NCBI GenBank assembly: GCA_963402885.1 | Contig: OY727097.1 | Location: 4,774,001 to 4,838,000, forward strand | DNA from: Antedon bifida | Taxonomy: Eukaryota > Echinodermata > Crinoidea > Comatulida > Antedonidae | Direction of reading: 5' to 3' | Length of the DNA stretch: 64,000 nucleotides | In this document: positions 986 to 5,942 of the stretch, in pieces | Layout of the letters: every line of letters begins with the position of its first letter | How positions within the stretch are numbered: the first letter of the stretch is position 1 | Notes under the pieces: generated by a model | Told to the model about the DNA's origin: nothing | Database searches by the model: none | Seen by the model: only the letters and a program-made list of their open reading frames with translations | Program-made: the position numbers and the translations under genes

Positions 986-2610
986 ATGGAAGGAAACACT
1001 TGTAGTATGAATATGAAAAGATCAAGTCAGGGATTTGAATGTGACCAGCTATATAAACGGTCGCGGTCGGTATCAGAGATCGTGAGTCCTTTAAACGGGA
1101 TAAACCTCTATATGAACGACGACGTTGGTAAGTTTGAGCAACTGACGGAGGCGATTGCACAGAATGTGGATGGAAATGAAGAGGAGGAGGAGGAGGAAGA
1201 AGGAGAAATGGTTGAAGAGGAAGAGTTGAAGCCGACAATCGTGCAAGGAGAGGACGCATTTGATGGGATTGGGAAAGTTGTAGGCAAAGCAAAAAAATGT
1301 ATCTTCTCAATTTTTAACAATTTTGCCGAAGAAATATTTCAAAAGCCTGAAAAAGAAAAGACAATGAAGGTAAGTAAACCTACTCAAATTTTATTAAATG
1401 TTTTTAGATAATACACGATTAAAGTAGGTGTAACGCCAAATCAAGTAAAAGTTTATTATTTAGTAAATATATTTATCATTATGAGTATTATTTAGGGTCA
1501 AAGTCAGCGTTTAGAATGTCATTATTAGCACTGAACCAAATTAAAAGCAGAAACAGCGGTTCCGCATTCTTGTCTACCTATCCCGATGTTATGTAAACAA
1601 TAGCAACCCGGAAATTTAGTTATTTCCTTTTTTTAGGCGGGTTACCCTGGTTTTTCAGAGTTTCGATTTCACAAGTAATCCCAGGTTGGCTTACCTCGGC
1701 ATTTTAATTCATGACGCGTTATTTGTGGGCAAAACCATTGTGTTAAACATCAAGGTTGGATGAACGATACATTCGAAGCTTTTTAGGTACGTTATCTCAC
1801 CCATCCTGTTCAGAATAACTTTACACCTGAATATAAAGATATACAATTTAAATTGAGATAAATTGTCAAATTGAAAAGCGAAAGTAGTTCAGTCACCAAT
1901 ACAACTGTTATTAATGACAGACTAACCGTCAAATACAGGTCTTGCTCCAGAAACCGTACCCCCTGTGGCCTAACGCTAGAGGCCCGAGGCCCCTGGCTTA
2001 GGAACCCAAAGTGGCCCTCTAACGCTGGAGGCCTCGGGTGTTTTTAGTCCTTTCGACATATTTTAATGCCTGTTTTTTCCTCAGGATACTGCTCGGGGGC
2101 CCCCATAAGACCCGGGACCCCTGGGTTAGCCAGCGAGCTCTCATAGCCGTTACGCCACTGCGTACCCACTGACATTGTAACATGGAGAAATATCAACTTA
2201 TTTCTCAATGATTGTAACCATAACAAAATGCTTCAAAAGTAACAAATATTATTACTATAGGATGTTGGTACACCGGTGCACATGAAAGATGATTCGGGTA
2301 ATGGCGTACCCATTGGCATCAGACTCTTACAAAGAACTGAAGGAGGATTCGAAATATGTCACGTAGAAGAAAAGAGCGTGGTTAAAGATAAGCTAAGGTA
2401 GAGAAACGTTGACTTTTAAAAGCGAAGGGGATGAAAAGAAATACGATGCCATATTAATTGATAATATTGATGCGTGAGAGTGAGCAAGTAGATGAGGATG
2501 ATGATGGTGGTGATGATGAAGATGATGAGAAGATGATGATGATGAAGATGATGATGGTAATGATGATGATGATGAAAATGACGATGATGATGAGATGATG
2601 ATGATGAGAC

Positions 2611-2648
<38 letters not shown>

Positions 2649-5600
2649 GAAGAAGAAGATGGTCATGATGATGATGATGATGATGATGAAGAAGAAGAAG
2701 ATGATGATGGTGATGATGAATATGATGATGGTGATGATGAGATGATGAAGATGATGATGGTGATGATGATAATGGTGATGATGGTTATGAAAATGATAAT
2801 GGTGATGATGAGAAGAAGATGATGATGATGAGATGATGATGAAGATTATGAAGATGATGATGATGAGACGACAACGATGATAATGATGATGATGACGATG
2901 ACGATGACGACGATGAGATGATGCTGCTGCTGATGATGATGATAACGACGATGATGATTAGACGACGATGATGATGATGACGATGATGAGATGATGATGA
3001 TGACGATGAGATGATGCTGCTGCTGATGGTGATAACGATGATGATTAGACGACGATGCTGATTGTGACGATGATGATTTTATTCTATATCTATCATATAT
3101 ATTTGTTTACATTTATTATTTAATAGGTATAATAAGGATATTATAAATTTTATTTTGATATTAGGAGTGGTGATAAGATCGTGTTGGTAAATGAAGAAGA
3201 CATAGTCAGCAAACAAACGGAAGAGGTTCTCGCAATATTCATGAAGTCATCTTTAGAAATCGTAAGTGCATTATAAAAGTTATGTAATCTATTGAGTAAG
3301 ATTTTGGCCACATATAGTTTCCCAGGCCTCAAGTAATAATGAAGGAATTTTGGCCTAATTCGGGGCTACTGTTAAAAACAGCCTTTTACAATATATATTG
3401 AATGTAGGCCCAGGTGAAAATTTTACTCTTCTGGTAGGCCTATTATATTTATCCCTATTTTTCGATACAGTACCATTAACTCTTGACATTATTATGATAT
3501 GCTTTTTATTCTGTAGAAAATCAGACGTACATATATCTCAGAAGAGGATAACACATTGCACACGTTTGAATTCGTATGCAAGATCACATATAATGGTATG
3601 TTTATTTGTTATCATTAAATCACACCATGGAGAAACTTATTTATCCGTACAAGTCCCATAGGCCTAAACAGATTGTACCCAGTAAATTAAAAATTCTGTC
3701 TAATTAAATAACGACATTTATTAATTTAAATATAATAGAAATACAAAAGAAGAATTTTATCACTTTCACTAACGAATTGAAAGGCCCCAAAGAGTTATTT
3801 CCCAGGCCTCAATATTGTTAAGTAAGGAAGGATAATTTAGGGCTACTAAATCAATATCGGTTTATAACCGTATAATTAGCAACAGTACCGAGAAAATCGG
3901 ATATTATAGCAGTATTGTTGCAAATTGGAGGGGGAGTTTATTCAATATGATGTTCTATGGGGTGGGTAGGGGCTGGGTGAGGGGTGTTTATTTGAGGGAG
4001 GCGTTTATTTAAAGCGCGGGGCGTTTTTTAAAGAACAAATACGGCAAATACGTTGTTATATTTATATGCTTGGCAATGTTTTATTGTAGATAAAATTGAG
4101 TTGACTGTTGTTAGTATAGAGACTAGTGGCAGAGCATTGTTGATACGGGATAAACATGGCTTCCAGAGAGGTCTGTGCTTCTTTCGTAATGACTTAAGAG
4201 ACGGAATGCAGGAATTCGTACGTTGCAACAGCACAACAGTCTTTGCTGGACGATATGATCCAATCTTATGTAAGTGGACATGTTTTGGTTATTACAGTAG
4301 AGTCCCTAAACCAAATGATAGTTTGCCGTAGTGTTAAAACTACAGTAGTCTAATAGGTTCTAGACCAAAATTAGTAAAAAGATAAATATTGTGGCATATA
4401 TAGCGTTTCATACGTATAATACCTGAGCATACATTTTTTTCAGCCAAAAATCGAAACTCTGACTTACAATACAATAACCTACAGACTTGACTTGGGGCGT
4501 GTTAAAACATATAATTTCCCATTGTTCGTTTCACGGGATTCCTTTCCAACCGACCTTTGATGGACACCAGTGCGCGTCCTGGACAAAAATGATGCCCCCA
4601 TCCCATGGAAATATTTATTGATCCTCCCCTAGTCACCTCTGCCACAACCCACAACATTTTATCGAACTGAATGATGCTGTGTGTACCATGATTTAAGAAT
4701 AATATTCATCTTTTTTTTACAGCACCTTTAGATGTTCATAGATTTATTAATTTTTCATCACCAACCAACAGACAGGTGATGATGTTTATGCACGACAAAA
4801 AGTTCATCAATGTAAGCAGTAGCAAGCAGTTGGAACTCACAGTAAGTCACTTTACCGTAGGCCTACTTTTATGTGTTTTTCCCCTGGATTACGCGACTGA
4901 TAACAACGGCGGTGGTGGGTAGTTCGGATGGGGGCTTGCTAAGGGGGTTTGGTGCTAGTTCCGCATTTACAATCTTCGCACTACGCCAATTCATTAAAAA
5001 GTATAACTTGTTTTGTTTTTGTTCCCAGGTAGGAAAAGTGTCAGGCGCTGTGCCGTGTGATGGCCGTGCCTTTACGAAGTCAATATACCCGCACGAAGAC
5101 GACACATTCCTGATTGAATCGGTGCAATATCCAAGTGAGTGGTTCTATAAATAATGATATTGAATGATGATGATGATAATAATGATGACGATGGTTTGAT
5201 TGTACTGATATACAATATGCCCATTTTATACTGGTGATAAGACAATGCTACGCCTTCGCTCGTGAGGAAATATTCTGACGATTGATAATATGATGGACAA
5301 TGACGATAATACATATAGTAGAACCTCTATTTATAGGACATCTGGACCCAACAAAATTGTCCCCTTAATATGGGTTTTCGGGGAAAAAACCCAAATAAAC
5401 TTTAATTGATCTGGACTTAAGAAATTGAGATGAATTGAACATTTAGCAGCAGACGTTTCTACAATGTAAACTGCCAAGCCAGAGTATCATAATTGTTTTT
5501 TTTTGTTGTTTTTGTGATGGAAAAAAGTATCCACTTAATATGGATTGAATCAACCATATTTTGACTGTGTCCCCTTAATAGGGGTCGGCTGTAGGGGTTG

Positions 5601-5942
5601 GTCATAATGTTAAACAGTCCCCCTCGTTTTCGCGGTAAACTGTCCCCTTGATAGGGGTTTCCCCTGAAAATAGGGTGTCCAAAAAGAGGGGTTATACTGT
5701 ATTTAATTATGGGTACATCTATCCAGGCAAGAAGGGTTTCCTGGTCTATATACACCTAATAGTATAGCCTATGAATATATCGTTTTTATTATTTATTTGT
5801 AGGGCATTATCTTGCAATTGACGGAACTGAAGTAAAGTTGATAAAAGTTGAAAACGATGATCTTTTTCTCACAAAACAAGAGGCTACAAAATGCCGAATC
5901 GAAATCATAAAATCAGATGGAGATGGACAAATAAAGAAATAA
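986..5942 (+). CDS. IL-1-like beta-trefoil protein with N-terminal PDZ domain
   Basis: Eight exons join in frame: 986-1369, 2261-2397, 3165-3261, 3517-3595, 4090-4269, 4723-4841, 5029-5134, 5803-5942, giving 413 residues. There is no signal peptide. Residues 1-128 are a basic then acidic leader (KRSRS near 24-28; Glu-rich 65-80). Residues about 131-215 read as a PDZ domain: PIGI (145-148) where GLGF is expected, then LRSGDKI and VNEEDI, typical of the second half of PDZ folds. Residues 233-413 resemble an IL-1/IL-18 trefoil: a TFLIESVQYPRHYLAI segment (358-373) matches the family pattern F-E-S-x-x-x-P-x-x-F/Y-L/I, preceded by an F-x-K-x strand and followed by an LTK/CRIEII end. Known biology: IL-1 cytokines are leaderless, made as pro-forms and act through TIR receptors. 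The PDZ fusion is an inference from motif reading. Other trefoil families (FGF, fascin) are less likely because of the ESVQYP segment and the position of the final strands. Confidence 0.72.
1962..2164. mobile_element. Non-autonomous DNA transposon, GTTACGCCACTG-terminated family
   Basis: It lies in intron 1 of the PDZ/IL-1-like gene. It shares with copies near 16739, 24660 and 57728 the phrases GGCCCCTGG, CCTGTTTTTTCCTC and TTTAGCCAGCGAG. The right end GTTACGCCACTG is the inverse of the left end CAGTGGCGTAAC best seen in the 24.66-kb copy, so the element has short terminal inverted repeats. Confidence 0.6.
2480..3078. repeat. GAT/ATG trinucleotide microsatellite, about 600 bp
   Basis: Nearly uninterrupted GATGAT runs with interspersed GAAGAA and GACGAC triplets, inside intron 2 of the PDZ/IL-1-like gene. 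It creates spurious Ser/Ile/His-rich reading frames on the minus strand. The array ends about 85 bases before exon 3, so length change could affect splicing of the PDZ coding exons. Confidence 0.95.
5309..5703. mobile_element. Tigger/pogo-like MITE
   Basis: The ends are ACAGTATAACC-type inverted repeats: the left end reads AGTAGAACCTCTATTTATAG and the right end AGAGGGGTTATACTGT. The interior repeats GTCCCCTTAATAGGGG. It lies in intron 7 of the PDZ/IL-1-like gene. The termini resemble those of pogo/Tigger transposons; no transposase is present. Confidence 0.55.

Follow-up and report, generated by a model that had tools for sequence, protein, structure and literature searches.

The closest described counterpart of the genes presented here is nIL-1F of fish. 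According to PMC7144542, the lumpfish protein has 352 amino acids (aa) encoded by seven coding exons and combines an IL-1 family domain with a predicted PDZ domain; the same source places the nIL-1F clade between IL-1β and IL-18, with members in coelacanth and ghost shark, and reports nIL-1F from teleosts, one lobe-finned and one cartilaginous fish, the PDZ domain being stated for lumpfish only. It also describes predicted caspase-1 and thrombin sites, and cites grass carp nIL-1F as a protein that binds the IL-1β receptor and attenuates IL-1β (PMC7144542). For IL-1β itself, the turtle IL-1β paper (PMC4880838) lists II,0,I,I,0 as the phases typical of its coding introns, of which the last three are 1,1,0; according to the same paper, the three final exons encode all twelve strands. 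Here we describe two tandem genes in a 64-kb stretch of echinoderm DNA (the window; C10:4774001-4838000, C10 being a 32.5-Mb contig of a 315.6-Mb assembly with 27 contigs). Judging by sequence comparison, gene 1 is probably an echinoderm relative of fish nIL-1F and IL-1, i.e. a leaderless precursor in which an acidic N-terminus is followed by a PDZ domain and, at the C-terminus, by an IL-1-type β-trefoil, accompanied by a paralog devoid of the PDZ domain (gene 2).

Gene 1 comprises eight exons over 986-5942 on the plus strand, which are joined in frame, as the initial annotation had proposed, to encode 413 aa followed by a stop codon ending at 5942 (Table 1). All seven introns are of the GT-AG type, with phases in order 0,2,0,1,1,0,1. 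The used frame is open in each exon until the final stop and the other offsets hold stops, except one in exon 4. At least 7 of the 9 donor consensus positions are present in 9 of the 11 donors of both gene models, versus 4.1% of the plus-strand GTs in the window, and no premature stop or frame break was found across the 13 exons of genes 1 and 2. A search of the whole assembly with the gene 1 protein (E≤10) returned eight matches, which were its own eight exons, in order, on C10, and no other copy. Intron 2 carries an imperfect GAT repeat of about 590 bases (2491-3077), a possible length polymorphism.

By crude hydropathy, no leader is evident in the protein of either gene, in agreement with the initial description of gene 1 as leaderless, and its N-terminus (aa 1-128) is likely to be disordered. 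The PDZ domain, initially placed at about aa 131-215, was recovered by the Pfam model PF00595 above its cut-off (E 1.4e-5, 25.8 bits versus 23.2) at aa 143-205. The exons that encode it are preceded by a phase 0 intron, separated by introns of phases 2 and 0, and followed by one of phase 1. Exons 5-8 encode the C-terminal stretch of about 180 residues, which contains the segment IESVQYPRHYLAIDGTEVKLI.

Gene 2, which was missing from the initial annotation, lies in tandem 6.5 kb downstream of gene 1. Its five exons (12502-15119, plus strand) are spliced to encode 243 aa with no PDZ domain. The introns of the putative trefoil region are alike in both genes: a phase 1 intron, an exon of 119 nucleotides (nt), a phase 0 intron, and a phase 1 intron within the ESV motif. 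The intron phases of gene 2 (0,1,0,1) retain only the last two of the IL-1β series II,0,I,I,0. Its top Pfam match is IL1 (PF00340; E 0.0067, 16.5 bits), covering aa 125-212 and positions 8-98 of the 119 in the profile. These features suggest that gene 2 is most likely a PDZ-less paralog of gene 1. An exon-shape search for a third copy in the window and 60 kb of flanking sequence gave six hits: two were exons of genes 1 and 2, as expected, two more overlapped gene 2, and the other two lay in the downstream flank and lacked the ESV-type motif of both genes.

Several further lines point to IL-1. The phases of gene 1, 0-[2-0-1-1-0]-1, hold the five-phase run of IL-1β, with one additional intron before it and another that interrupts the signature. 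A naive estimate with assumed phase frequencies gives a chance of about 1.3% for such a run somewhere, and takes no account of FGF genes having phases 1,0 as well. A signature-like segment starting at aa 361 of gene 1 agrees with 7 of 9 pattern positions, and at least 7 were reached in 85 of 20000 shuffles of the protein; the nine-position pattern includes a restored P-x(2) element, which is absent from the form in PMC7144542. Like gene 1, several IL-1 members fall short of the full pattern, with counts of 7 for IL-36g, 8 for IL-37, 6 for human IL-18 and for IL-38, and 5 for human IL-33; the remaining IL-1 members have 8 or 9, FGF1 has 5 and FGF2 4. In gene 2, the FESVTNSG motif is not the best match to the pattern within the protein.

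The C-terminal thirds of both proteins, split at the shared phase 0 intron, were scored on an IL-1 profile of 10 sequences and an FGF profile of 5 sequences. Gene 1 obtained 9.3 bits (0/2000 shuffles) and gene 2 8.1 bits (1/2000) on the IL-1 profile, and -1.3 (1083/2000) and 1.6 (231/2000), respectively, on the FGF profile. Among the controls, IL-33 scored 5.1 bits when omitted from the IL-1 profile, and the eight other members 23 to 78; FGF2 scored 59.3 on the C-terminal profile of its own family, and the remaining four FGF pieces reached -0.5 to 4.6 on that of IL-1. By these scores, the C-terminal thirds of genes 1 and 2 are nearer to IL-1 than to FGF. The hhalign comparison gave gene 1 values of 0.005 for IL-1 and 0.3 for FGF and, in global mode, gene 2 values of 0.0006 and 0.13. 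The score of gene 2 on the full whole-domain IL-1 profile was met by 0 of 5000 shuffles. From these agreeing lines, weak to moderate and with no single strong match among them, we infer that a trefoil fold and shared ancestry with IL-1 are probable, and that both genes are probably relatives, rather than proven members, of the IL-1 superfamily.

A number of results weigh against this assignment. Neither gene scores above the PF00340 cut-off, gene 2 reaching 16.5 of the required 25 bits. Gene 1 has no Pfam IL-1 match, and no IL-1 chain was found among its PDB sequence matches up to E 10; the IL-1 identity proposed in the initial annotation is partly supported, by intron phases, the neighbouring paralog and the C-terminal profile scores. 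Of the initially reported trefoil with its signature, a signature-like segment from aa 361 was recovered, and aa 203-413 gave no Pfam hit of any kind up to E 10. With the IL1 model, two Ig-domain proteins encoded elsewhere in the genome score 22.3 and 18.0 bits (24.4 and 20.3 bits in the genome-wide search, of which they are the two matches), i.e. more than gene 2. Each lies on one long frame and seems to include a transmembrane stretch; the match falls in the second domain and below the cut-off. We judged these matches to be probably false, although in one of the two proteins no other model scores better than IL1 over the matched part. IL-33 is modelled apart from PF00340, so that a match to this model does not define the whole IL-1 superfamily.

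On the whole-domain IL-1 profile gene 1 scored 5.6 bits, its reversed sequence 4.5 and FGF2 10.5. The domain score of gene 1 was met by 8 of 5000 shuffles with the full profile (4040 shuffles reported by HMMER); when the profile was built from five alternative sets of members, 9 to 20 of 5000 did so. The score of gene 2 was met by 33 of 5000 when IL-18 and IL-33 were removed from the profile and by 279 of 5000 on an IL-33-only profile. As gene 1 is only weakly above shuffles and below FGF2, with its reverse close behind, our case does not rest on whole-domain profiles. Global hhalign was weak for gene 1 with both families (IL-1 0.11, FGF 0.26). A test for a three-fold internal repeat was uninformative, since known IL-33 fails it as well, and the NCBIfam search returned nothing relevant. 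Finally, the two proteins show no in-register BLAST similarity to each other, and their exon-anchored score was equalled by 17 of 1000 shuffles, which suggests that genes 1 and 2 are old or fast-evolving tandem copies.

FGFs are β-trefoil proteins too. It is conceivable, although in our view unlikely, that the C-terminus of gene 1 is a β-trefoil of another branch, FGF-like or lineage-specific, joined to a PDZ domain in an intracellular adaptor or FGF-like factor, and that its resemblance to IL-1 reflects a general trefoil motif. The FGF middle exons of this genome run from phase 1 to 0 in 5 of 5 modelled loci (of 12 matches; 104-110 nt), and a middle core exon of this kind, present in genes 1 and 2, is common to IL-1 and FGF and so does not discriminate between them; intron phases 1,0 alone were accordingly dropped as proof of IL-1. 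Middle-exon profiles do not separate the two families either, and on the C-terminal profile of IL-1, FGF2 obtains 14.1 bits. Local hhalign placed gene 2 equally close to IL-1 and to a two-sequence FGF profile (0.0017 each). In exon-anchored alignments, gene 1 reached the 5% level with 6 of 10 IL-1 sequences and with neither of two FGFs, and gene 2 with 7 of 10 and with both FGFs (FGF scores met by 22/1000 and 1/1000 shuffles), which makes gene 2 equally close to the two families; IL-18 versus FGF1 reaches this level as well. The bacterial chain 9fnk, which we take to be a trefoil, is weakly matched by IL-33 (E 0.0021), IL-18 (0.034) and gene 1 (0.89). On the other hand, of the 12 genome matches of the FGF model PF00167 at E≤1, three above the cut-off, none lies inside the window, and no FGF family appears among the Pfam hits of gene 1 (to E 1), its aa 203-413 (to E 10) or gene 2. 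The C-terminal thirds fit the IL-1 and not the FGF profile, and the PDZ domain, the lack of an evident leader and the 2,0,1,1,0 series point to IL-1 and nIL-1F.

A second alternative, which we regard as improbable, is that the model misjoins two adjacent genes, exons 1-4 belonging to one with a PDZ domain and exons 5-8 to one of the IL-1-like type. The tandem neighbour is indeed of the trefoil type without a PDZ domain, and ATTAAA signals occur early in intron 4, at 3614, 3686 and 3703. However, exon 4, ending in phase 1, fits exon 5, beginning in phase 1, with good splice sites, and the open frame of exon 5 (4032-4331) contains no Met before the putative trefoil, so that a separate gene would require an unseen first exon; moreover, lumpfish nIL-1F is described as carrying both domains in one protein (PMC7144542). 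That gene 1 is a decayed copy or a set of chance exons is highly improbable, considering the intact frames of 13 exons in two genes, donor sites far above background and the curated PDZ hit.

If gene 1 is a relative of IL-1 and nIL-1F, its precursor would, by analogy with these proteins, remain in the cytosol, where the PDZ domain may tether it to membrane-protein tails or to those of cortical proteins, much as the initial annotation had suggested for membrane or junction partners. The trefoil could then be freed by cell damage or by a protease, possibly at the candidate site in the linker (Table 1), and the freed domain might bind an IL-1R-type Ig-TIR receptor on neighbouring coelomocytes and switch on TIR/NF-kB signalling. 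It might equally dampen such signalling: as grass carp nIL-1F is cited as attenuating IL-1β (PMC7144542), the released domain could be an antagonist. Gene 2 may supply an untethered ligand or antagonist.

IL-1 genes are said to be missing from invertebrates and jawless vertebrates (PMC9382457), and a survey of 400 species placed the origin of IL-1 with early vertebrates (PMC12108812). As summarized in PMC9020223, no invertebrate IL-1-like molecule has been characterised, IL-1-like activities have been reported in echinoderms, tunicates and insects, and the IL-1 receptors preceded their ligands. A sea cucumber coelomocyte transcriptome is described as containing four cytokine families, IL-1 not among them (PMC7161275). 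Among the titles and abstract openings listed in searches of open-licence literature, we found no report of an invertebrate IL-1 gene, though such reports may exist elsewhere. Going by the title of their 1986 work, Beck and Habicht reportedly described an IL-1-like protein of a sea star, Asterias forbesi. An echinoderm gene with PDZ and IL-1 domains of the nIL-1F type would, if confirmed, supply the missing ligand and be a candidate for that protein; the origin of IL-1 would move before the vertebrates, and its pre-vertebrate role would become testable.

A more tentative idea, about which we are rather doubtful, is that the PDZ-IL-1 combination is the ancestral form of the superfamily, present in the echinoderm-vertebrate ancestor and kept by fish nIL-1F, and that the IL-1β propiece is a worn-down remnant of the PDZ region. 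The introns of the propiece have phases 2-0-1, as in the PDZ-coding part of gene 1. In that case IL-1 would have begun as a tethered protein of the junction or cortex and become a released alarm signal later.

Table 1. Features of genes 1 and 2 (window positions).
Feature	Position	Strand	Description
Gene 1 exon 1	986-1369	+	start ATG; acidic N-terminus (aa 1-128) without leader by hydropathy
Gene 1 exons 2-4	2261-2397, 3165-3261, 3517-3595	+	PDZ domain (Pfam)
Gene 1 exon 5	4090-4269	+	phase 1 to 1, 180 nt; putative N-terminal part of IL-1-like trefoil
Gene 1 exon 6	4723-4841	+	phase 1 to 0, 119 nt; putative middle trefoil part
Gene 1 exon 7	5029-5134	+	phase 0 to 1, 106 nt; putative third trefoil part, ending ESVQYP
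Gene 1 exon 8	5803-5942	+	HYLAIDGTEVKLI... to stop
IL-1-signature-like segment, aa 361-381	5113-5843	+	interrupted by intron 7 (phase 1)
DAFD|G, aa 90-94	1253-1267	+	candidate caspase-like site
SEED|N, aa 214-218	3538-3552	+	candidate caspase-like site in the putative PDZ-trefoil linker
Gene 2 exon 1	12502-12687	+	leaderless N-terminus by hydropathy
Gene 2 exon 2	13141-13333	+	phase 0 to 1; putative N-terminal trefoil part
Gene 2 exon 3	13778-13896	+	phase 1 to 0, 119 nt; in both respects identical to gene 1 exon 6
Gene 2 exon 4	14359-14467	+	phase 0 to 1, 109 nt (gene 1 exon 7: 106 nt); ends YYFESVTNS
Gene 2 exon 5	14995-15119	+	GYYVGYD... to stop

Elsewhere in the window, a two-exon IL-17-like gene on the minus strand (48004-48196 and 48838-49133; 162 aa, spliced by eye, with a leader-like start) matches PF06083 above the cut-off (E 1.6e-14) and, together with genes 1 and 2, makes three putative cytokine genes in 64 kb. 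The neighbours at 17200-39400, read by eye, are eIF2A-like (minus strand), RNF168 (plus) and PELP1-like (plus); the RING of RNF168 has 42 of 88 identities, counted by hand, to a PDB RNF168 chain, which we take to be the human one. At about 41520-43520 (minus), reading by eye suggests a short, secreted protein rich in cysteine and with ShK-like repeats, a biotin-carboxylase-like exon lies at 60958-61077 (minus), and an ING gene, with Pfam ING above the cut-off, at 62991-63605 (minus). Repeats include a 24/99-bp minisatellite at 16041-16415, open in two frames per strand, a 118-bp array of 5.7 copies at the end of the PELP1-like gene (39332-40009), and a satellite array of 53 bp at 45117-46343 (23 copies, 95% matches).

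The initial annotation had spoken of an invertebrate-type genome, and the mitochondrial contig of the assembly (C27, 15,844 bases) identifies it as that of an echinoderm. Read with the echinoderm code, C27 holds long open frames recognised by eye as cob, nad1-6, nad4L, cox1-3 and atp6. In the alignment of its COX1 with a mammalian chain (386 of 511 identities), AAA codons are aligned with Asn in 4 of 5 cases, AAG codons with Lys in 5 of 5, ATA codons with Ile in 12 of 16 and TGA codons with Trp in 7 of 7; AAA for Asn together with ATA for Ile is characteristic of the mitochondrial code of echinoderms (and of flatworms). Of the four AGA/AGG codons, two are aligned with Ala, one with Thr and one with Gly, which gives no support to a Ser reading. 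Since the window lies on a contig of the same assembly, we take it as echinoderm too. The nad1, nad2 and large rRNA genes lie on the strand opposite to cox1, with tRNA-Arg and nad4L between nad4 and nad5, a crinoid-like order, the class being a guess on this basis.

Among known systems, pro-IL-16 is a leaderless cytokine precursor with PDZ domains; there the C-terminal PDZ is itself the cytokine and no trefoil is present, and an IL-16-like reading of gene 1 was rejected on this ground. The FGF family resembles genes 1 and 2 in its middle exon (phase 1 to 0) and differs from them in that their C-terminal thirds score as IL-1 and no FGF profile match lies in the window. IL-33 and IL-18 lack a PDZ domain. 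Both miss the strict signature; on the C-terminal third, IL-33 left out of the profile is as far from its family as genes 1 and 2 (5.1 versus 9.3 and 8.1 bits), whereas IL-18, treated likewise, scores far above them (24.8 bits). Vertebrate IL-1β is leaderless, with a propiece devoid of a PDZ domain and an undivided last exon. It differs in these points from gene 1, which the IL1 Pfam model does not detect, and shares with it the phase series II,0,I,I,0 as given in PMC4880838.

The nearest system is nIL-1F, which is compared here through its published description, where the domain order is unstated. Lumpfish nIL-1F, with its predicted PDZ domain, and gene 1 resemble each other in the PDZ domain, which in gene 1 is probably paired with an IL-1-like domain as well, and in the number of coding exons, seven against eight; they differ in the phase 1 intron within the signature of gene 1, and in their source, a fish versus an echinoderm with a long acidic N-terminus on its protein. 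As the lumpfish protein is already reported with an IL-1 and a predicted PDZ domain (PMC7144542), the combination is not the new architecture that the initial annotation took it for; the pair is known from fish, and the novelty is its probable occurrence in an invertebrate. This architecture is the strongest outside support for relating gene 1 to IL-1, and if the trefoil is IL-1-like, it is unlikely that the same two domains came together in an echinoderm by coincidence.

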